DNA of 64,000 nucleotides from NCBI GenBank assembly GCA_016290175.1, contig JAEETD010000006.1, forward strand, positions 1-64,000, in the 5' to 3' direction. The position numbers and the translations under genes are program-made. Below, piece by piece: positions 38,670-55,051 of this stretch. The first letter of the stretch is position 1; the number at the start of each line of letters is the position of its first letter. The notes beneath the pieces are model-generated. The model was given only the letters and a program-made list of their open reading frames with translations, did no database searches and was not told the DNA's origin. Source of the DNA: Prevotella sp. GTDB taxonomy: Bacteria; Bacteroidota; Bacteroidia; Bacteroidales; Bacteroidaceae.

Positions 38670-41609
38670 ATGGTAACAAAGAAAAAACAGTTTGAGAAGC
38701 CCTCGATGATAACAAGAGCTTACACAACAGCCTCCTCCAGCTGCAGGCAACTAAGTTTTGGAGGTGCATGGCGGCGCCTTAGTCTGACGCTGCTCGTCGC
38801 GCTCTGCTGCCACACCGCTGCAAGCGCAGAGACACTTACGGTTTATGATGGGACGAATGATTCCCAGTATCTCCCTGTATACGGGTATTATGCAGACATG
38901 TCAGATACCAAATCCGAGTTTGTCATCCCCAAAGGACAGTTGGGTGATATGGAAGAAGGCACTATCTCCAAACTGAAGTTTTATCTTAAGACAAGCTTAA
39001 CTGCCGCCTGGACTGCTAAGTTTCAGGTGTATCTCAAAGAAATTGATGCAACCACATTGACGGGTATTGTCGGCCCCGATGCCAGCACCGTGGTCTATAC
39101 CGGAACCTTGGATGCCACAGGAACGGAGATGACGGTGACATTTGACACACCATATACCTACAATGGTGGCAACCTGCTGATTGGTACAAATGTCAGTGAG
39201 AAAAGTAGTAATTGTAACAAAGCATATTTCTATGGTGTTGATCAAAACGAGAATACTGGATGTTATAGAGGAACTCTGTCAAAGTTCATCCCAAAGACCA
39301 CATTCACCTACACACCCTCCAGCAGCGTGGTGTCTAAGCCGAAAAATCTGGCTGCCTCGAACATCACGCACGAAAAGGCTACCATCACCTGGATAAGCGA
39401 TGAATCTGCCTGGGACATCGCCTGGAGCACCGATCCCGACTTTAATCCGGCATCAGCTACCACACGTGCCGACAACGTGAGCGAAAAGACCTACACCATC
39501 ACCGGTCTCAGCCAGTTGACCGACTATTATGTTGCCGTGCAGAATGCCGGTAGCGGTAAATGGAGCTCAACGTTGCATTTCAAGACCGCGGCTATAGCCA
39601 CTGCCGTCGGCAATAGCTGGAGCGAAAACTTTGAAAGTCCCGGCGGATGGGATCTCATCAATGGTGAACTTACCAACCAGTGGACTTGGGGCACCGCTGC
39701 CAACAACGGCGGTACGCACGCCCTCTACATCTCCAACGACGGCGGTACAACCAATGCCTATACTTTTATTACTAGTAATACGATAGTGTATGCCACAAGG
39801 TTACTTACCTTCACCGAAGGGACATTCGAGTTCTCCTACGACTGGCGGGCCTACGGTGAGAACAATAGTGACTATCTGAGAGTAGCCCTGAAACCAGCAA
39901 CAGAGTCGCTCACTGCTGGTACGACCGCTCCTACAGGTCTTAATGCTACGTCACTCCCCACGGGCTGGATAGCCTTGGACGGTGGGAGTCAACTGAGTGG
40001 GGTTACGGCATGGCAACACAAAGATGCAACCATCGATGTCGCCGCTGGCGACTACTATCTGGTCTTTGCCTGGCGCAACGACGGTGGTGCAGGAAATAAT
40101 CCACCGGCAGCCATTGATAATGTGAGCATCAGTAAATATACTGATAAGGTTACAGACTTGGCCGTGAGCAACATCACTACCACCGCCGCCACCATCAGTT
40201 GGAACGGCAACGGCGATAGTTATAACGTCAGATATACAAAACTGTTCCTCACTGAAGGCTTTGAAGGTGGTAGCATGCCCGCAGGATGGACAAAAGAGGG
40301 TACTGGTCTTTTTTCAATAGGAACAGGTGACAATGAAACTGACCGTGGCAGCCATAGTGGCAACAAAAATGCAAGGTTTCCGTCTTCTTCCTCTAATATA
40401 GGCAACCAGACATATCTTATCACCCCAAGCATGGATTTAAGTGGGGAGACAAGCCTGAAACTCTCTTTCTGGTATATCAACAGAGCTGCTGTTAGTCATA
40501 TCGATGGCATCGGCGTGTACTATCGTGTGGGCACTGAAGGTGAATGGAACGAACTGTGGAGCACCACAGAAGCACATGGATCTTGGACGAACCAAGAGGT
40601 TACGCTGACAGGCCTTGCTGCCAACTACCAGTTAGGCTTTAAGATGACAAACAACGATGGCTATGGAGTCGGATTGGACGATATCCAAATTACCCCCGCT
40701 GACTGGCAGACCGTCAACGACATCACAACCAAGAGTACTACCCTTACAGGACTTGACGCTAACACCACATACGGATGTCAGGTGCAAAACGTGAAGGGTG
40801 GTAATACTTCCCTCTGGTCGCCTATTGCTACGTTTACCACTGCGGCGGCTGCCGTCGTTCTGACCGACGGTGAAGACCTGTCGGCCCTGTCAGCATACGC
40901 CGGGCAGAAGGTTGTCGTGACCTATTTGCGCTCATTCACCAGCGGCAAGGCTTCTACGGTGTGTGTGCCGTTCGCCTTCGACGTAACATCGGCTGGTGGC
41001 ACGTTCTACACGTTTACGGGCATCACGAAGAGCGGTAGCACATATATTGCCAATATGACGGCAAGTGTGAGCAAGACGCTGACACCTAATACGCCTTACG
41101 TCTTCATGCCGAGTGCAACGGGCGACATGGATTTCAGCGGTACATATACGCTCCCTGCCTCGCTGACGGCCAGCTCGGCCACAAGCGGCGACTGGAAATT
41201 CTACGGCACCTATACGCGGCTGACTTACGGCACGGCTCCGATGACGGGCTATGTGTATGGCTTTGCCTCGGTGGATGCAACGGTGGAGGGTCACGAAGTG
41301 ACAGCGGGCGAGTTCGTACGTGCCACGACGGGTGCTGGTGTTCCCCCGATGCGCTGCTACCTGATCTACAAGGACGGCGAGGCTTATACCAATGCCCGCG
41401 CCCTGACGCGCGGCGAGGAGATGCCGCAGAGCATCATTGTGCGCCTGCTGGATGCGAACGGGCAGACGACGAGCATCGGCTCGCTGGACATGAAGACGGG
41501 CGAGATGGAGTTCGATGGATGGTACTCGCTCGACGGTAGCCGCCTCGAAGGCAAGCCCACAAAGAAGGGACTGTATATCAATAATGGAAAGAAGGTTATC
41601 ATTAAATAA
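38670..41609 (+). CDS. Large secreted fibronectin-III / choice-of-anchor (MAM-like) surface protein
   Basis: Repeated VTDLAVSNITTTAATISWNG-type Fn3 motifs, signal peptide-like LTLLVALCCHTAASA. Confidence 0.75.
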   Translation: MVTKKKQFEKPSMITRAYTTASSSCRQLSFGGAWRRLSLTLLVALCCHTAASAETLTVYDGTNDSQYLPVYGYYADMSDTKSEFVIPKGQLGDMEEGTISKLKFYLKTSLTAAWTAKFQVYLKEIDATTLTGIVGPDASTVVYTGTLDATGTEMTVTFDTPYTYNGGNLLIGTNVSEKSSNCNKAYFYGVDQNENTGCYRGTLSKFIPKTTFTYTPSSSVVSKPKNLAASNITHEKATITWISDESAWDIAWSTDPDFNPASATTRADNVSEKTYTITGLSQLTDYYVAVQNAGSGKWSSTLHFKTAAIATAVGNSWSENFESPGGWDLINGELTNQWTWGTAANNGGTHALYISNDGGTTNAYTFITSNTIVYATRLLTFTEGTFEFSYDWRAYGENNSDYLRVALKPATESLTAGTTAPTGLNATSLPTGWIALDGGSQLSGVTAWQHKDATIDVAAGDYYLVFAWRNDGGAGNNPPAAIDNVSISKYTDKVTDLAVSNITTTAATISWNGNGDSYNVRYTKLFLTEGFEGGSMPAGWTKEGTGLFSIGTGDNETDRGSHSGNKNARFPSSSSNIGNQTYLITPSMDLSGETSLKLSFWYINRAAVSHIDGIGVYYRVGTEGEWNELWSTTEAHGSWTNQEVTLTGLAANYQLGFKMTNNDGYGVGLDDIQITPADWQTVNDITTKSTTLTGLDANTTYGCQVQNVKGGNTSLWSPIATFTTAAAAVVLTDGEDLSALSAYAGQKVVVTYLRSFTSGKASTVCVPFAFDVTSAGGTFYTFTGITKSGSTYIANMTASVSKTLTPNTPYVFMPSATGDMDFSGTYTLPASLTASSATSGDWKFYGTYTRLTYGTAPMTGYVYGFASVDATVEGHEVTAGEFVRATTGAGVPPMRCYLIYKDGEAYTNARALTRGEEMPQSIIVRLLDANGQTTSIGSLDMKTGEMEFDGWYSLDGSRLEGKPTKKGLYINNGKKVIIK

Positions 41610-41627: not shown

Positions 41628-41771
41628 ATGAAGAAACAATATGAGAAGCCTTCGATGAAGGTATACGAACTGAAAGGACGCTCACAGATTCTGGCTGGAA
41701 GCCCCGACCCATACGACCGCGACTTCGGCTACATGCCTGGCGTCAACGATGATATGAACAAGACGGCGTAA
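41628..41771 (+). CDS. Short LAGS-motif peptide A
   Basis: MKKQYEKPSMKVYELKGRSQILAGSPDPYDRDFGYMPGVNDDMNKTA with AAGGAGGA RBS; not in ORF track. Confidence 0.75.
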   Translation: MKKQYEKPSMKVYELKGRSQILAGSPDPYDRDFGYMPGVNDDMNKTA

Positions 41772-43055: not shown

Positions 43056-43087
43056 TTTGGAAGTTTCAACTAAAGTTCGTATCTTTG
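43056..43087 (+). promoter_or_regulatory. Bacteroidetes-type promoter (TTTG-N20-TATCTTTG)
   Basis: Consensus -33/-7 match; near-identical copy at 51661-51692. Confidence 0.65.
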
Positions 43088-46296: not shown

Positions 46297-47886
46297 TTAC
46301 CGCGCCATGAGACGCACCATCCACGTTTCATCACTAGCTCTATTATCCGTTGTATGGGCACGGGGGTCTGTAACAGTGACATCACCGTCAGCAATGATGT
46401 ATATGGTCGCTTGATCGCCGAGGTCCTTATTGGTCCAGTAAGGTCCTTCTATCCACAAGAAACCGGTATCAAATTGGGCAATTGTCCTGCCATAGCCATT
46501 CACACACGCTTTGCTCCATTTTTTACTTTTCCAGCTTAGGGCACTGAACTGTTCCGGGCTTGGCAGAACTCCCAATTCATAAGTTTTACCCTTTGCTTCT
46601 AAATATGTGTAACGTGGTGTGAAATAACCTAACTTTTCCGGGACAGACACACCGAAATCACAGGTATACCAGGTGCCAACATCATCTTTAATCGTTATTC
46701 CGTCATCTGCGAAGTTTCGAAGCTTGACCGTCTCGTATTCTCCCATTTTCTGCCATTTGCCGATGGGGAGCTTTTCGTCGTCTTTGTAAGTGTTAATATT
46801 GTTGGTGGCTGGCAGTCTGATGGCGTCGTGGCTGGCAAGCGTCTTGCCCACCACATAATAGTCGTAACGCTCGTCACGTATGACGGTGGGACCACTACCG
46901 GAGGGGTGGTCGTATTCATCGCCGGAGTTGTTGTTGCCCCCGTTGGTGTAGCTGGTCTTGGTCATGGCGAAACAATAATTGCCGGGACAACGGTAACTGT
47001 CGCTCAGTTTCCCGTAGAAGAGATTGCCCTTCACGTTGCCGTCATTATAGACATATCTCGGCAAAGTAAAATCATTCGCCAATAGCCTCTCATTCTCGGT
47101 GGTCTCGATCTCGGTGATGGTGCCCTCGCTGCTAATGGAAACCACGCGAACGGGGTTGACCGCGTCCAAAACCAACTGGCATTTAATATATTGATCGTCC
47201 TCGCCATCCGGCAAGAAGATCTGCACAAAGCCGTCGGCAATCATCATGTTGAAAGCGCCGGACACGGTATTGTCAACCACTTCGTAAGGGAGCGTGCCCG
47301 TCATGTAGTAGGCGCGGGGTGTCTCGCTGAACGCGAAAGTATGATATCTGCCTTCTTCGTCAGGCTCCCCGCCGGCCGATACGGTGACATCATTTCCGTA
47401 GGGCAGGTACACCGCCGTCATCGTGCCCGTGGGGTAACGAGACAACTCAGATGATAGCGCTCCGGGCGATGCTGTAGGACCCTCATACTCCACGGAAGTC
47501 CATGTCGTACCGTCGTAGGTCATCTTCAGGTGTACCGGGACTCTGACTCCGTAGTAATCAGAATTTTCGTCTTTTCTGGTTTCGTGGAAGAACACGAAGA
47601 TGGCATCGCCGGCCTCCCAGTCCTGCTTCACGGCGCGGGTCGTGGCGGGAAGGGCTTCTCCGGCAGGCACGTCGTCGTCCCACGACTGCCACCGCCATCC
47701 GCCGCTCTCGCCGCCGCGCGTCGTGGCCACGTCGTTGGGGTGCGTGGCGGTCAGGTTGAAGGTGATGGGCTGCGCCGGCTCCGTCTGCGTGGGCTCCGTC
47801 GGAGTCAGGGGTATGTCGTTGTCGTCGCTGTTGCAGGCAGCCAGCGCAAGGATGGCGCACAGCAGTAATATTGCTCTTGTCTTCAT
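46297..47886 (-). CDS. Fimbrillin-family-like lipoprotein
   Basis: Lipobox ALAACNSDDND, TTRAVKQDWEAGDAIFVFF; GGAGG RBS. Confidence 0.65.
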   Translation of the reverse strand: MKTRAILLLCAILALAACNSDDNDIPLTPTEPTQTEPAQPITFNLTATHPNDVATTRGGESGGWRWQSWDDDVPAGEALPATTRAVKQDWEAGDAIFVFFHETRKDENSDYYGVRVPVHLKMTYDGTTWTSVEYEGPTASPGALSSELSRYPTGTMTAVYLPYGNDVTVSAGGEPDEEGRYHTFAFSETPRAYYMTGTLPYEVVDNTVSGAFNMMIADGFVQIFLPDGEDDQYIKCQLVLDAVNPVRVVSISSEGTITEIETTENERLLANDFTLPRYVYNDGNVKGNLFYGKLSDSYRCPGNYCFAMTKTSYTNGGNNNSGDEYDHPSGSGPTVIRDERYDYYVVGKTLASHDAIRLPATNNINTYKDDEKLPIGKWQKMGEYETVKLRNFADDGITIKDDVGTWYTCDFGVSVPEKLGYFTPRYTYLEAKGKTYELGVLPSPEQFSALSWKSKKWSKACVNGYGRTIAQFDTGFLWIEGPYWTNKDLGDQATIYIIADGDVTVTDPRAHTTDNRASDETWMVRLMAR

Positions 47887-47905: not shown

Positions 47906-48067
47906 TTACCATTCTTTTTCCTCGTTAAAGGGGTTATAGGTCGGGGCCACAGTGGTTTGTCCGCTGCCTGCCAGCAGCTGCGGATGCTCACCCAGCTGAT
48001 ACACCCGCATCGCGGGCCTCGCGTAAGCTCGCTTCGTTAGAGCGCTTTTTGTTGGTTTTGTATTCAT
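47906..48067 (-). CDS. Short LAGS-motif peptide B
   Basis: MNTKPTKSALTKRAYARPAMRVYQLGEHPQLLAGSGQTTVAPTYNPFNEEKEW; immediately upstream of lipoprotein gene. Confidence 0.7.
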   Translation of the reverse strand: MNTKPTKSALTKRAYARPAMRVYQLGEHPQLLAGSGQTTVAPTYNPFNEEKEW

Positions 48068-48156: not shown

Positions 48157-48188
48157 CAAAGATAGGGAAAAAATCAATAACTTCCAAA
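48157..48188 (-). promoter_or_regulatory. Bacteroidetes-type promoter for peptide B/lipoprotein operon
   Basis: Minus strand TTTGGAAGTT...TATCTTTG, 20-nt spacer. Confidence 0.6.
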
Positions 48189-48405: not shown

Positions 48406-49470
48406 CTATATATTTAACACTTGAGGAGCTAGGCTTAGCTCGTTGCTTGTTCGATACACGTTATCTGGGTTATATTTCACTCTGTCTCGGACCATTGCTA
48501 CGAGGATGTGCAGCATCTTATTTTTGATGTTATTATGCACTAGCAGAGGATGCTTGCCACGCTCTATGAGTCGCTGATAATAACTATGTACGTTTATGTC
48601 AAACTTAATTGCAGCCAAGGCTGCTTGTGAGAGCAAAGATTTGATCATCCTGTTGGCAAAAGGACTGACCTGAGGCCTGCTGTTAACGCTGGTGCCCGAT
48701 TGTCGTCCGAACGGAGCTATACCATAATAGCAGGCAATCTTCCTTGAGTCCAAGTCAAATTTCTGAAAGTTATCCGTATAGACCATCAGACATGTTGCGT
48801 TCTGCACGCCAATACCAGGCATGGAGGTGATGATGTCGAAGACCTCCCTGAGCTCGTCATCAGAGGCGATAATCTCCTTAATCTTTTGGTCACATTTGAC
48901 GATGGCCTTGTTTACCTCTGTAATAAGGTGTTTGCTGGTAAAGGACATGAAAGCCCTGGCATCCGACTTCTCTTGTGTGAGCCGTTTCTCATCTCTCCTG
49001 ACCGTCAGTGCAACCTTTTGCCTGACAAGGCTGTGACGATAAAGGAACACCTCTCTCAGGCACGTCAGCGAGGCACTCTGAGGCTTGTGCAGTATCATCT
49101 TGTCGTAATTACGCATGGCGTACTCTGCAATGGCGCGTGAGTCTGCCTTGTCGTTCTTCACACGCTGGATACCTGCTGAGTGCTTAATCTTGTAAGCACA
49201 CTCCAGCCACATATCATAGCCCGAGGCATAAAGATAGTTGCTCAGGCCTATACTATAACCACCTGTGTTCTCCCCGCAGAAGAGCCAGGCGTCTGCCGCA
49301 CAGCCATCTGCATGAGCCTTTACCCATTTCGCCAGACAACGGTAGCCTGATGTCTTGTTGTCAAACACTTCGTGCACACTTGGAGCACATTCCTTCAATC
49401 CCTCTGCCTTAATGAGGGTCGCATCAAACTTTTCTTTCGAGAAATCGATGCCGATAAAGATTTTTTTCAT
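48406..49470 (-). CDS. IS110 family transposase
   Basis: FIGIDFSKEKFDATLI, ENTGGYSIGLSNYLYASGYDMW, KNDKADSRAIAEYA, SMPGIGVQNATCLMVYTDNF. Confidence 0.9.
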   Translation of the reverse strand: MKKIFIGIDFSKEKFDATLIKAEGLKECAPSVHEVFDNKTSGYRCLAKWVKAHADGCAADAWLFCGENTGGYSIGLSNYLYASGYDMWLECAYKIKHSAGIQRVKNDKADSRAIAEYAMRNYDKMILHKPQSASLTCLREVFLYRHSLVRQKVALTVRRDEKRLTQEKSDARAFMSFTSKHLITEVNKAIVKCDQKIKEIIASDDELREVFDIITSMPGIGVQNATCLMVYTDNFQKFDLDSRKIACYYGIAPFGRQSGTSVNSRPQVSPFANRMIKSLLSQAALAAIKFDINVHSYYQRLIERGKHPLLVHNNIKNKMLHILVAMVRDRVKYNPDNVYRTSNELSLAPQVLNI

Positions 49471-49816: not shown

Positions 49817-51253
49817 TCAATAAGCAAATACGGCAACGACATTGAAATTCGCTGTCTTTTCTAGGCAGTCAAAAATGCAATAAAAAGGTTCGATGATCCA
49901 AGCCTTGCCATCATTGCCAGTAACCTCTGAACTAAACCAGGTATCGTAGATCCAAGCACCAGTAACAATATAACCCGTCAAGATATCATAACTAACAACT
50001 TTTTGGATCGTAAATATATCAGAACCGGAAGAATAATTCAGGCCTTTATTTACGCCGATGGGGGTGGTGGGTGATTTTCCAAAAATACCTGCGTAGAGAT
50101 AGCGCCAGTCAGTGACAGTGGGCATTCGCCAGCCCTGATGCAGTGTTGTGGCGGTGGCGGAAGTGGCGGTATTGTCGTTTGTCACTACGTCGTAAACTGA
50201 TGTCCATGCATTCGTGTTGTTATAGGTTGTGCCGCCGATGGTGATGGGATGGTTCCCAGCATAGGTGCCTATAGCCGTCAAGGCATCGCTCCAGGTTACT
50301 TTATTAGCCGCATCAGACAGCGCGATGGCAAGGAAATGGTTGAAGTATTTGTCAACCGTTCCGACATAGACTATCACGGCCTCTTGTCCACTGGTTCCTT
50401 TCGTTGCGAACTTGCCGTCAGAGAGTATCGCATCACCTACGGTAGCCATCTTCACTGTGCTCTGATAATACTTGCCAGCCACGGTAGCAGTGCTTATGTT
50501 AGCCTTGGCAATATAGGGTTTGCTGTCGATGGTGGCGTTGAACCAGTAGGTTCCATCACCCATTGCGGGCAGAGCTACATACAATACATCAGAGGCAGAG
50601 CCAGGCTTAACGGTGGTAATCACACTGCCAGAGTTGTCGCTGACCTTGAACTCCGTAGCACTCTTAGCTGCAGCGCTGAGATCCTGCAGTGTGAATTTGA
50701 AGATGGCGTTCAGGTTGGTGAGCGTTACGGTTCCCTTCAACGAAGCCGTTGTGCCATCAATCTTCAACTTAGCAGGAGTTGTCGTCTTGCGCAGTTCATA
50801 ATTCTCGGCGATACTGCCAGGACCCGTCAGCAGTCCGTTCTGTAAGTCCAGCAGACCGGTCTTCACGTCTTTGGTCGACTCATCAACTGCCGAATAGGGA
50901 TATACGATGGTTACGTCGGTATCGTCGGCAGGGCTGCCTTCGAGCGTCGTGCTGATGGTGGCGGTACCGCCAGCTTGCGGCGTAACCTCGGCTTCCTTCA
51001 AATAAGTGGTGGATCCGACGGTGTAGATCAGAGCCACTTTCTCGCCAGTAGCCCATGTGGCCTCAATCGTTGTTCCGTTTTCAGTCAGTGCGCGGGTGGA
51101 AGCACTCTCGCCTATGCTGATAGTGGCGGTGAAGGGGATGCCCTCACTCTTGGCGGGCTGCTCAGCAGGGGTCAGAATGTCGTTATCGTCGTTGCTGCAG
51201 GCTACTGTTATCAATGCCAGTGCAGCCATCATGATAATCTTTGTTGCTTTCAT
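49817..51253 (-). CDS. Fimbrillin-family-like lipoprotein
   Basis: Lipobox ITVACSNDDND, STRALTENGTTIEATWATGEKVALIY. Confidence 0.65.
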   Translation of the reverse strand: MKATKIIMMAALALITVACSNDDNDILTPAEQPAKSEGIPFTATISIGESASTRALTENGTTIEATWATGEKVALIYTVGSTTYLKEAEVTPQAGGTATISTTLEGSPADDTDVTIVYPYSAVDESTKDVKTGLLDLQNGLLTGPGSIAENYELRKTTTPAKLKIDGTTASLKGTVTLTNLNAIFKFTLQDLSAAAKSATEFKVSDNSGSVITTVKPGSASDVLYVALPAMGDGTYWFNATIDSKPYIAKANISTATVAGKYYQSTVKMATVGDAILSDGKFATKGTSGQEAVIVYVGTVDKYFNHFLAIALSDAANKVTWSDALTAIGTYAGNHPITIGGTTYNNTNAWTSVYDVVTNDNTATSATATTLHQGWRMPTVTDWRYLYAGIFGKSPTTPIGVNKGLNYSSGSDIFTIQKVVSYDILTGYIVTGAWIYDTWFSSEVTGNDGKAWIIEPFYCIFDCLEKTANFNVVAVFAY

Positions 51254-51294: not shown

Positions 51295-51438
51295 TTAATA
51301 ACTGAACGGATCGCCGCCGTTGCCGTAATCATTGGGATCGCTCAGTCCACTGCCGGCCAGGATCTGCGGCTGCTGTCTCAACTCGAAGACCTGCATCGCA
51401 GGCTTCTCGTACTTTCGTTTCTCTTTGATTGTTGTCAT
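51295..51438 (-). CDS. Short LAGS-motif peptide C
   Basis: MTTIKEKRKYEKPAMQVFELRQQPQILAGSGLSDPNDYGNGGDPFSY; not in ORF track. Confidence 0.75.
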   Translation of the reverse strand: MTTIKEKRKYEKPAMQVFELRQQPQILAGSGLSDPNDYGNGGDPFSY

Positions 51439-51559: not shown

Positions 51560-51632
51560 CTGACAGGGGACAGGTACCTGTCAGAACACTTTGACGCGGA
51601 CTTGAATCTGACAGGTACCTGTCCCCTGTCAG
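51560..51632. repeat. Inverted pair of 25-bp REP units, 23-nt spacer
   Basis: CTGACAGGGGACAGGTACCTGTCAG / reverse complement; identical geometry to 54393-54465. Confidence 0.95.
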
Positions 51633-51660: not shown

Positions 51661-51692
51661 TTTGGAAGTTTCAAATAAAGTTCCTACCTTTG
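51661..51692 (+). promoter_or_regulatory. Bacteroidetes-type promoter for kinase-peptidase-PqqD-ABC operon
   Basis: TTTGGAAGTTTCAAATAAAGTTCCTACCTTTG. Confidence 0.65.
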
Positions 51693-51823
51693 CAGCGACT
51701 CACGTGAGAAAGAACAATATCCCATCGGGTTACAAAGAGAGCAAGCACTTATATGAATCATCAATACGATGACAAATCCAAACGCATCAGGTACAAGACA
51801 CTATCGTTAAGAAACGTTCCAAG

Positions 51824-52654
51824 ATGAAAGAGACGAGATATTACAAGGTGGCAGGACACCGGTTCTGCGTGACGGGCGAGGCGGAAGGCTTTGCCAATTA
51901 TGAACCGTTCCTGTGCGAGGAAGGCGAGACGGTTTTCGCACTGAGCATCGGGGATGGCGAGGCACCGGAATATGTTGAAGAAATAAGACAGGAAGACGAG
52001 GGACAGGAAATCATCTGCGGCAAGACGGCTGCGGACGAAGCGGTGTTCGAATTCCATTGGTGGAACGATACGGCGGGCTGGCTCATCTGCTCTGCCGACT
52101 ACCACAAAGGCCGGCTCATCACGACGGGCAGGCATGTGAAGATGGCCATCGACAACGCCCTGATGGTGCTTTACGCCCTGGCTACGGCCGACCGGCAGAC
52201 GGCGCTCTTCCATGCGGCCGTGGTGAGCTATGAGGGCAAGGGATATATGTTTCTCGGCCCCAGCGGCACAGGCAAAAGCACCCATGCCAGTCTGTGGCTG
52301 CGGTATATAGCGGGGACGGCACTGGTGAACGACGACAATCCGGTGGTGAGAGACGGCGTGGTCTACGGTTCGCCCTGGAGCGGCAAGACGCCCTGCTATC
52401 GCAATGTGCACTATCCCCTGGGAGGCATCGTGGTGCTGAGCCAGGCGCCCTACAACAGGATACAGCGTCTGAGCGGTCTCCATGCGTATGCTGCCCTGGT
52501 GGCAAGCATCAGCGGCAAACGCTGGGATGCCCGCATCGCCGACGGACTGCACCAGACGGAGAACGCGCTGGCCTCTACCGTACCCGTGTGGCATCTGGAG
52601 TGCCTGCCCGACGAAGAAGCAGCGAGAGTGTGCCAATTAACAATTAAGAGGTAA
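51824..52654 (+). CDS. HprK-like (serine) kinase
   Basis: P-loop FLGPSGTGKSTHASLW, LVNDDNPVVR, GSPWSGKTPCYRN. Confidence 0.75.
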   Translation: MKETRYYKVAGHRFCVTGEAEGFANYEPFLCEEGETVFALSIGDGEAPEYVEEIRQEDEGQEIICGKTAADEAVFEFHWWNDTAGWLICSADYHKGRLITTGRHVKMAIDNALMVLYALATADRQTALFHAAVVSYEGKGYMFLGPSGTGKSTHASLWLRYIAGTALVNDDNPVVRDGVVYGSPWSGKTPCYRNVHYPLGGIVVLSQAPYNRIQRLSGLHAYAALVASISGKRWDARIADGLHQTENALASTVPVWHLECLPDEEAARVCQLTIKR

Positions 52655-52666
52655 GAATTAAGAGTT

Positions 52667-53131
52667 ATGATTACCGATGAGCGGATAATAGAGGAGGCGG
52701 TCAGGCTGGTGGAGGACGGCGTGTGCGTGACGCTGCCAGTAGATGGCAACAGCATGCTGCCGTTCATCATCGGTGGCAAGGAGAGCGTCATACTGCAGCA
52801 GTCCGGTGAGCCGAAAGTTGGCGACGTGGTGCTGGCGTGGGTCGAGAAGTCCCGTGCAGGTGCGCCAGCGGCTGTGAGCCACCTCTATGTGGTGCATCGC
52901 ATCATCCGGATCGACGGCGACCATGTGACGCTGATGGGCGACGGCAATATCGCCGGCACGGAGCACTGCCTGCGCAGCGCCATCAAGGCCCGTGTGACGC
53001 ATGTGGTGGATGAAAATGAGAGAACGCATGACATTTATAGCTGGTGGCGGAAACTGGCGGCAAGACTATGGTTCTGGCTGCGACCCGTCAGACGGTATTT
53101 ACTGGCAATATACAGAAGAGTAAAAAGGTAA
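52667..53131 (+). CDS. S24/S26 family peptidase, signal-peptidase-like with Ser-His-type signature
   Basis: VDGNSMLPFI, GDVVLAW, YVVHRIIRI, MGDGN. Confidence 0.75.
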   Translation: MITDERIIEEAVRLVEDGVCVTLPVDGNSMLPFIIGGKESVILQQSGEPKVGDVVLAWVEKSRAGAPAAVSHLYVVHRIIRIDGDHVTLMGDGNIAGTEHCLRSAIKARVTHVVDENERTHDIYSWWRKLAARLWFWLRPVRRYLLAIYRRVKR

Positions 53132-53148
53132 AAAAGTAAAAAGGTAAT

Positions 53149-53421
53149 ATGAGAATCAAGAAAGGATTTGTGCTGCGCGAAGTGTGCGGCGAACGTGTGA
53201 TCATGGGCGAGGGCCTCGGAGCCATCAACTTCAAGAAGATGCTCGCCCTGAACGAGTCGGCCGGATGGCTGTGGAAACAGGCTCAGGAGATGGGCGAATT
53301 CACCGTTGAGTCGCTGGCCGGAAAGCTGTGCGAGGAATACGAGGTGGAGGCCGACGAGGCAAAGGCCGATGTTGCCGACATCATCGCTTCCTGGCGCTCG
53401 GTCAACGTCATCGAAGACTAA
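53149..53421 (+). CDS. PqqD-like peptide chaperone
   Basis: 90-aa; GAINFKKMLALNESAGWLWKQ...ESLAGKLCEEYEV...DVADIIASW. Confidence 0.75.
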   Translation: MRIKKGFVLREVCGERVIMGEGLGAINFKKMLALNESAGWLWKQAQEMGEFTVESLAGKLCEEYEVEADEAKADVADIIASWRSVNVIED

Positions 53422-53443
53422 TTATTCATTATGCTTATTAATT

Positions 53444-55051
53444 ATGAATTACATCTCGTGGCTTTGGCGGAACATGCGGGGCATCCGATGGAATGCCGTC
53501 GCAAGGATCGTGACCGGTGTGACCCAGGTGGTGCTCGGCCTGCTGATGGTATGGCTCAGCAAACGGTTCATCGATGAGACCATCCGCACGGGCACGGCCG
53601 ACGATGTGCTGAGGATGGTCATCTGGCTGGTGCTGACCGTCGTGGGCGGCGTGCTGATGAGTCAGGCTGGCTTCTGGCTGGCCACCTCGGCGAGTGTCCG
53701 TCAGACCAACGCCCTGCGCCTGCGCATCTTCAGCAGCCTCTTCCGCAGGCAGCTCTACGACGGCGAAACACTGCATTCGGGGGATATCACCTCGCGCCTG
53801 GCAAAGGATATCGAACAGGTGACCAACGTCTGCACCGACACATTGCCTCAGATGGTGATCACGATGATACAGCTCTGCGGCGCATTCCTGCTCATGCGGT
53901 GGTTTAATCCGCAGCTGGCATGGGCATTGCTGCTGCTGACACCGCTGGCCATCGTCTTCGGCAAACTCATTGCACGGCGCCTCAGGAAGATGACGCTCGA
54001 CATACGGCAGGACGAAAGCCGCATACAGATGCAGGTGCAGGAGGGCATGGAGCATAATGCCGTGCTGCGCTCGCTCGGCTCTGAGCAATGGGTGACCGAC
54101 CGACTCGACTCGATGCAGCAACGGCTCCGCGGGAACGTGATGCGGCGCATGCGCTTTACCGTCATCACACGGCTCATCATGGGATGCGCCTTCGGACTCG
54201 GCTATCTGCTGGCCTTCGTGTGGGGCGGCATCGGACTGCGCAACGGCACGATTACCTTCGGTGTGATGACCTCGTTCCTGCAGCTCGTCGGCATGATCCA
54301 GCACCCCATCCTGCAGCTGCTGAACATGGTGCCCAGCGTGATCCACGCCACCGCCAGCATCGACCGCCTCGAGGAACTTGATTCTGACAATTCTGACAGG
54401 GGACAGGTACCTGTCAGAAAACAATCCCGCGCTAACAATTCTGACAGGTACCTGTCCCCTGTCAGATTCTCCGACGTGAGTTTCCGCTACGCCAAGGGCG
54501 ACAGGCAGATACTCTCCCACTTCACACATGAGTTCAAGGCAGGCTCCAAGACCGCCATCATGGGCGAGACGGGCATCGGCAAGACCACGTTGTTCCGGCT
54601 GATACTCGGCTTTACCGAGCCTACCGACGGAGAGATCACTGTAGGCGGTGAAATCTGTTTCGTGCCGCAGGGAAACACCCTGATGAGCGGCACCATCCGC
54701 TACAACCTGCAACTGGCCAAGCCCGACGCCACCGACGACGAACTGCGGCAGGTGCTGCATACCGCCTGCGCTGATTTCGTGCTCGACCTGCCCGAGGGCC
54801 TGAACACCGAACTGGGTGAACGGGGCAGCGGACTCAGCGAGGGTCAGGCACAGCGCATCGCTATCGCCCGCGGACTGCTACACGGCGGCGACATCCTCCT
54901 GCTTGACGAGATCAGCAGTTCGCTCGACGAAGCCACCGAACGCGAACTCTTCGCCCGGTTGTTTGCCGCTTGTCCTCAAAAAACCATTCTTTTCATCACC
55001 CATCGTTCCGCCATGTCCTCCCTCTGCGACGATGTGGTGCGGTTGTCCTAA
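53444..55051 (+). CDS. ABC exporter (TMD-NBD) with in-frame REP pair in linker
   Basis: TM helices, Walker A GETGIGKTTL, signature LSEGQAQRIAIARGLL, D-loop region. Confidence 0.9.
   Translation: MNYISWLWRNMRGIRWNAVARIVTGVTQVVLGLLMVWLSKRFIDETIRTGTADDVLRMVIWLVLTVVGGVLMSQAGFWLATSASVRQTNALRLRIFSSLFRRQLYDGETLHSGDITSRLAKDIEQVTNVCTDTLPQMVITMIQLCGAFLLMRWFNPQLAWALLLLTPLAIVFGKLIARRLRKMTLDIRQDESRIQMQVQEGMEHNAVLRSLGSEQWVTDRLDSMQQRLRGNVMRRMRFTVITRLIMGCAFGLGYLLAFVWGGIGLRNGTITFGVMTSFLQLVGMIQHPILQLLNMVPSVIHATASIDRLEELDSDNSDRGQVPVRKQSRANNSDRYLSPVRFSDVSFRYAKGDRQILSHFTHEFKAGSKTAIMGETGIGKTTLFRLILGFTEPTDGEITVGGEICFVPQGNTLMSGTIRYNLQLAKPDATDDELRQVLHTACADFVLDLPEGLNTELGERGSGLSEGQAQRIAIARGLLHGGDILLLDEISSSLDEATERELFARLFAACPQKTILFITHRSAMSSLCDDVVRLS
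54393..54465. repeat. Inverted pair of 25-bp REP units inside CDS
   Basis: Same 25-mers and 23-nt spacer length as 51560-51632; encodes SDRGQVPVRKQSRANNSDRYLSPVR. Confidence 0.95.

Follow-up and report, generated by a model that had tools for sequence, protein, structure and literature searches.

A kinase, peptidase, RRE and exporter operon of Prevotella as the probable processing machinery of an LPP-like peptide system

Background

The Linear Polyphosphorylated Peptide (LPP) systems described by Popov et al. in 2026 comprise LppA precursors, the kinase LppK, the RiPP recognition element (RRE) LppB, the SipW-like peptidase LppS, the pump LppD, and the NTP transferase LppN (PMC13381572). Deletion of lppK abolished phosphorylation, deletion of lppS abolished leader removal, and leader cleavage in vitro required the RRE (PMC13381572). 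The catalytic residues of LppS are S29, H68, and D93, while Asn33 and Asp70 of LppB fix the Pro kink and the Tyr of the leader, and Y-x2-P-x-(hydrophobic) is the motif that is bound by both lasso and LPP RREs (PMC13381572). LPPs have been stated to be restricted to Bacillota, to be patchy in distribution, and to have a function that is not known (PMC13381572). An HprK-like kinase together with a PqqD-like protein is also found in the HprK_rel_A/PqqD_rel_X pair (TIGR04352/TIGR04353) and in the case of SynChlorMet ScmC. The TIGR04352/TIGR04353 system was rejected for the locus described here because the scores were 19.1 bits against a cut-off of 200 and 13.9 bits against a cut-off of 35.

The operon that we report lies in a 64,000-nucleotide stretch of DNA from a rumen Prevotella sp. 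(contig JAEETD010000006.1 of assembly GCA_016290175.1, positions 1 to 64,000), which we call the window. The window's genome is an 83% complete assembly. This operon had been predicted to form a phospho-peptide tailoring and secretion system that matches no classical class. The linkage of its genes, its RRE, and candidate substrates that carry the RRE-binding motif support such a system, in which phosphorylation and cleavage would follow by analogy and export from the gene content. The statement about class needs correction because the gene functions match those of the LPP type published in 2026 (PMC13381572). We propose that the operon is probably the processing machinery of an LPP-like RiPP system, that is, one for linear phosphorylated peptides, and that its four genes very probably bind, phosphorylate, cut, and export small peptides encoded beside surface-protein genes. 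Term searches of open-access papers that deal with RiPPs in Bacteroidales, with the mining of RREs, and with lasso peptides of the rumen gave no mention of such a system.

Results and discussion

The four intact genes at 51824-55051 are separated by gaps of 12, 17, and 22 bp and are preceded by a promoter (Table 1), and thus the predicted arrangement of four tightly packed genes on the same strand behind one promoter holds. That promoter coincides with the start of the interval originally singled out. It was found with a Bacteroidetes-type pattern that has 12 sites in the window against 0.9 expected, whereas a sigma-70 scan is uninformative in this phylum. The promoter at 43056-43087 (+) is nearly identical to it over the full length (TTTGGAAGTTTCAAxTAAAGTTC), and the two may be co-regulated. 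We also observed paired inverted copies of CTGACAGGGGACAGGTACCTGTCAG, which are REPIN-like, at 51560-51632 and 54393-54465; across the genome this sequence has 44 matches, most of which form pairs with a spacing of about 45 bp. The second pair is in frame within the ABC gene, in the linker between TMD and NBD, and this linker is variable among relatives.

Table 1. Features of the operon, the candidate precursors, and the genes next to them, in positions of the window
Feature	Position	Strand	Details
Large secreted protein (fn3, MAM)	38670..41609	+	on the strand of precursor C, ending about 20 bp ahead of it
Candidate precursor C	41628..41771	+	47 aa: MKKQYEKPSMKVYELKGRSQILAGSPDPYDRDFGYMPGVNDDMNKTA
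Fimbrillin-like lipoprotein gene	46297..47886	-	weak Mfa_like_1; on the strand of precursor B, 19 bp downstream
Candidate precursor B	47906..48067	-	53 aa: MNTKPTKSALTKRAYARPAMRVYQLGEHPQLLAGSGQTTVAPTYNPFNEEKEW
Bacteroidetes-type promoter upstream of precursor B	48157..48188	-	promoter pattern scan
Lipoprotein gene	49817..51253	-	lipobox ...VACSNDD; on the strand of precursor A, 41 bp downstream
Candidate precursor A	51295..51438	-	47 aa: MTTIKEKRKYEKPAMQVFELRQQPQILAGSGLSDPNDYGNGGDPFSY
Bacteroidetes-type promoter of operon	51661..51692	+	TTTG-N20-TACCTTTG
HprK-like kinase	51824..52654	+	276 aa; His130, Walker A SGTGKST, NDD motif conserved
S26 SipW/ER-type peptidase, putative leader peptidase	52667..53131	+	154 aa; Ser29/His77, Asp92, Glu99
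PqqD-like discrete RRE	53149..53421	+	90 aa; Asn35, Asp74
MsbA/CydCD-type TMD-NBD ABC exporter	53444..55051	+	535 aa; no C39 domain

The identities originally given to the four genes stand, those of the PqqD-like and ABC proteins on firm matches and those of the kinase and the S26 protein on weak matches that alignments support. In family searches the kinase matched HprK-like families at 2e-5 to 3e-3. Its assignment as HprK-like is supported by an alignment of 30 diverse homologues in which there is little or no variation at His130, in the Walker A sequence SGTGKST, and in the Asn-Asp-Asp motif, and we take these to be the catalytic His, the P-loop, and the Asp region of HprK. The S26 protein matched signal peptidase I at 6e-5, and Ser29, His77, Arg78, Gly91, and Asp92 are invariant in 30 out of 30 homologues, while Glu99 is near-invariant; Asp92 or Glu99 is the candidate for the third catalytic residue. 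A His where bacterial signal peptidase I has its Lys is the mark of the archaeal/ER/SipW type. The predicted model of this protein (pLDDT 92) retrieved LexA/UmuD and signal peptidase folds with Foldseek, at modest scores that leave the subtype unfixed. The ABC protein matched at 1e-32 over its TMD and 3e-20 over its NBD, and a Pfam/NCBIfam search found no C39 peptidase domain in it, and hence export of the GG-leader/PCAT kind was rejected.

The original prediction had named two findings that would speak against it, and one of these was that the PqqD-like fold is not that of an RRE. The profile, the predicted fold, and the aligned residues all speak for an RRE. The protein matches the PqqD family of Pfam at E=3.8e-14, which is above the family cut-off, and a profile built from 34 PqqD proteins matched in the PDB TfuB1 (1.7e-6), PbaB1 (9e-4), TbiB1 (2e-3), and LppB (0.14), thereby ranking lasso RREs above LppB. 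The top fold matches of its AF2 model (pLDDT 88) are TbiB1-leader complexes, with TM scores of about 0.74-0.79. Asn35 and Asp74 align with Asn33 and Asp70 of LppB and are near-invariant among the 34 homologues. On these three grounds the PqqD-like protein is a genuine RRE, with the residues for leader binding in place, and its gene is the one PqqD gene in the window's genome.

No precursor had been listed for this operon. We found nine candidate peptides in the genome, three of which lie in the window, and these nine have the common leader K-R/K-x-Y-x2-P-x-M-x-V-x2-L-x5-(I/L)LAGS, after which the sequences diverge. What a loose regular expression returned was for the most part noise, and the precursors were then searched for with profiles. 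Across loci 84 distinct precursors were collected; all 84 have [YF]xxP, and, counting from the aromatic residue, 77 have Lys at -3, 52 have Met at +5, and 70 have Val at +7; in 72 the leader end has its first Ser at +19 or +20. The leader of these 84 has low entropy and the core high entropy, and the core is rich in Asp, Gly, Glu, and Pro. As to their C-termini, a D-x(2,4)-LA motif is common to some precursors, which are from records titled Prevotella and Fibrobacter (loci L148, L168, L172, L185, L188, L190, and L195); 13 out of 84 end in LA or LT and another 25 end near a Trp.

The leader matches in sequence the motif that lasso and LPP RREs bind. By analogy, the PqqD-like RRE would bind the leader K-x2-Y-x2-P-x-M-x-V of the precursors beside surface-protein genes, the HprK-like kinase would phosphorylate a Ser, most likely the conserved one 19-20 residues after the Tyr, and the SipW-like Ser/His peptidase would remove the leader, perhaps near (I/L)LAGS. 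The MsbA-like ABC protein may then export the linear, phosphorylated, and acidic Asp/Gly/Pro-rich core, and the gene content suggests a possible role of the product at the cell surface.

The precursors go together with the operon across genomes. With a profile of 42 members, at least one peptide was found in 98 out of 123 genomes that have the kinase and in 6 out of 28 that do not (Fisher p=1e-8), some kinase-less genomes thus giving matches as well; with a narrower profile the numbers were 60/123 and 3/28 (p=2e-4). Both p-values overstate independence because the genomes are related. The precursors number up to 17 per genome and are dispersed, most of them far from the operon. Even so, 10 of the 146 best matches lie within 11 kb of the kinase where 1.2 would be expected (p=7e-7), and leaving out the window's genome there are 7 against 1.15 (p=2e-4), a co-location that is partly selected for in some genomes because kinase-near peptides were among the sequences from which the profile was built.

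A gene for a PF14907 NTP transferase, which completes the LPP gene set, is directly upstream of the kinase in 22 relatives, among them Segatella baroniae B14 and records titled Fibrobacter. The five such genes tested matched PF14907 at E of about 1e-39 to 1e-48. The records titled Fibrobacter (L181, L185, L188, L190, L191, L196, and L200), which are MAGs, have NTP transferase and kinase, mostly with precursors just upstream, and in L181, L185, L188, and L190 the surroundings of the kinase gave no PqqD gene. An NTP transferase in this position raises the question whether the peptides, while being true substrates, are further modified, for example by nucleotidylation or glycosylation, phosphorylation being only an intermediate step. 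The authors of the LPP work did not identify the final product and also suspected more steps (PMC13381572). However, PF14907 has no match in the window's genome, as far as its 83% complete assembly goes, and the operon is without a glycosyltransferase; we therefore regard further modification as improbable.

The genes beside the precursors point to the cell surface. In the window's genome six of the nine precursors are directly before a lipoprotein gene, within about 45 bp or overlapping it, and two are directly after the gene for a large secreted protein, namely, the fn3/MAM protein and a C10 protease. Among 80 precursors that could be placed, 36 have a co-directional gene at most 200 bp downstream, and 14 of these genes code for lipoproteins against a background of 29 out of 432 genes, while 54 have a co-directional gene upstream, 26 of which carry a signal peptide against a background of 135 out of 432; the signal calls were made by simple heuristics, and many of the upstream genes are cut off where the locus ends. 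Several relatives have the peptide between the gene for a large secreted protein and an NTP transferase-kinase pair. The link of the precursors to surface-protein genes is a correlation. That all precursors are upstream of lipoproteins was considered and dropped because many in relatives are directly downstream of large secreted proteins. Two further features of this region were seen. The N-terminus of the fn3/MAM protein (38670-38730, +), MVTKKKQFEKPSM, resembles the precursor leader motif and stands ahead of a stretch like a signal peptide, and an IS110-family transposase gene (48406-49470, -) separates precursor B from the lipoprotein gene that goes with precursor A.

The position of six out of nine peptides so close before, or overlapping, a lipoprotein gene is also what would be seen if they were upstream leader ORFs that couple lipoprotein translation, and if the operon were unrelated to them and acted on some protein. 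This is quite improbable, since the leader fits the RRE-binding motif, the presence of the peptide tracks the kinase across genomes, and in many relatives the peptide follows a large secreted protein or stands between that and the NTP transferase/kinase genes. Taking the peptides as substrates of the operon, it is conceivable, though we would put it at somewhat less than an even chance, that in the Prevotella-containing family one near-core hub of RRE, kinase, and peptidase matures up to about 17 dispersed precursors, which would all have different partners among the surface lipoproteins and large secreted proteins, and that maturation is thereby coupled to the display of proteins on the cell surface.

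The kinase, S26, and PqqD genes are linked beyond chance. The S26 and PqqD genes are close to the kinase gene on the same strand at 109 out of 141 kinase loci, 99 of them in the order kinase-S26-PqqD, and so the other finding that would have spoken against the original prediction, that these genes are unlinked elsewhere, is not what the neighbourhoods give. The kinase is present in 123 of the 151 genomes of the host family (88/109 of the good genomes) and in 14 out of 393 genomes sampled across the phylum with the kinase profile, the strong matches being in the host family and in a single further family within the class. The records with its closest relatives are titled Prevotella and Segatella, and rumen samples are the source of many of them. 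The trio occurs in two contexts. In one it is with an ABC gene, as in the window, and S26, PqqD, and ABC genes are nearby in 54 of the 80 closest loci. In the other, seen in many relatives, it is without the ABC gene and beside rpoD-like and degQ-like genes; at L066, L058, and L069 this trio is at a conserved site after genes for an rpoD-like protein, a degQ-like protein, and a small secreted protein. Because the trio of many relatives stands at what looks like a housekeeping locus and has no ABC gene with it, export may be dispensable or may go via another pump.

The second context could also suggest a non-RiPP function, namely, a serine kinase module that regulates proteins in an HPr-like or metabolic manner together with a housekeeping peptidase. 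We find this very unlikely because an RRE is a hallmark of RiPP systems and this one has the conserved leader-binding residues, and because NTP transferase and precursor genes are adjacent in relatives. A lasso peptide cluster with the cyclase encoded elsewhere, which would fit an RRE whose profile and fold are closest to those of lasso B1 proteins and a leader motif common to lasso leaders, was rejected as the least probable reading, since the B2 cysteine leader peptidase (PF13471) is absent from the window's genome, the peptides are without the conserved penultimate Thr of lasso leaders, and, as originally predicted, there is no macrolactam cyclase (Asn-synthetase-like) among the operon genes and scanned neighbours.

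Comparison with known systems

The paeninodin-like phosphorylated lasso peptide systems resemble the Prevotella system in having a discrete RRE, an HprK-like kinase, an ABC exporter, and a [Y/W]xxP leader motif, but the operon here has no macrolactam cyclase and has an S26 peptidase in place of the B2 cysteine peptidase. The likeness to the LPP systems goes further. It extends to the HprK-like kinase, the discrete RRE, the putative SipW-like leader peptidase, the MsbA-like pump and, in relatives, the NTP transferase, to candidate precursors with a conserved N-terminal YxxP leader, a Ser conserved close to where the leader ends, and a variable core, and to an operon without macrolactam cyclase. 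When the LPP consensus was compared with the precursors found here, YxxP and the downstream Ser were present and HQxIxFET was absent. Because the LPP functions are present, but HQxIxFET is absent and the RRE is not closest to LppB, we conclude from these sequence comparisons that the Prevotella system probably works like an LPP system, and that the likeness is one of functions and not of settled descent.

If this is true, phosphorylated linear RiPPs would be common among the bacteria that dominate the rumen and the gut, and many precursors tied to surface-protein genes would be the first genetic clue to the function of LPPs. Segatella baroniae, Prevotella sp. tf2-5, and P. aff. ruminicola Tc2-24 are named isolates in which this can be tested. 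The system differs from the LPP systems in that the NTP transferase is missing from the window's genome and in that the leader is YxxPxMxV...LLAGS instead of YxxPxVLxHQxIxFETxxS. What is new with respect to LPPs is the host, which is Bacteroidota (and records titled Fibrobacter) and not Bacillota, the up to 17 precursors dispersed beside surface-protein genes as against one to three in the LPP cluster, and the near-core conservation in the family as against the patchy occurrence of LPPs. The Prevotella operon looks like the first Bacteroidota branch of the LPP peptide family.
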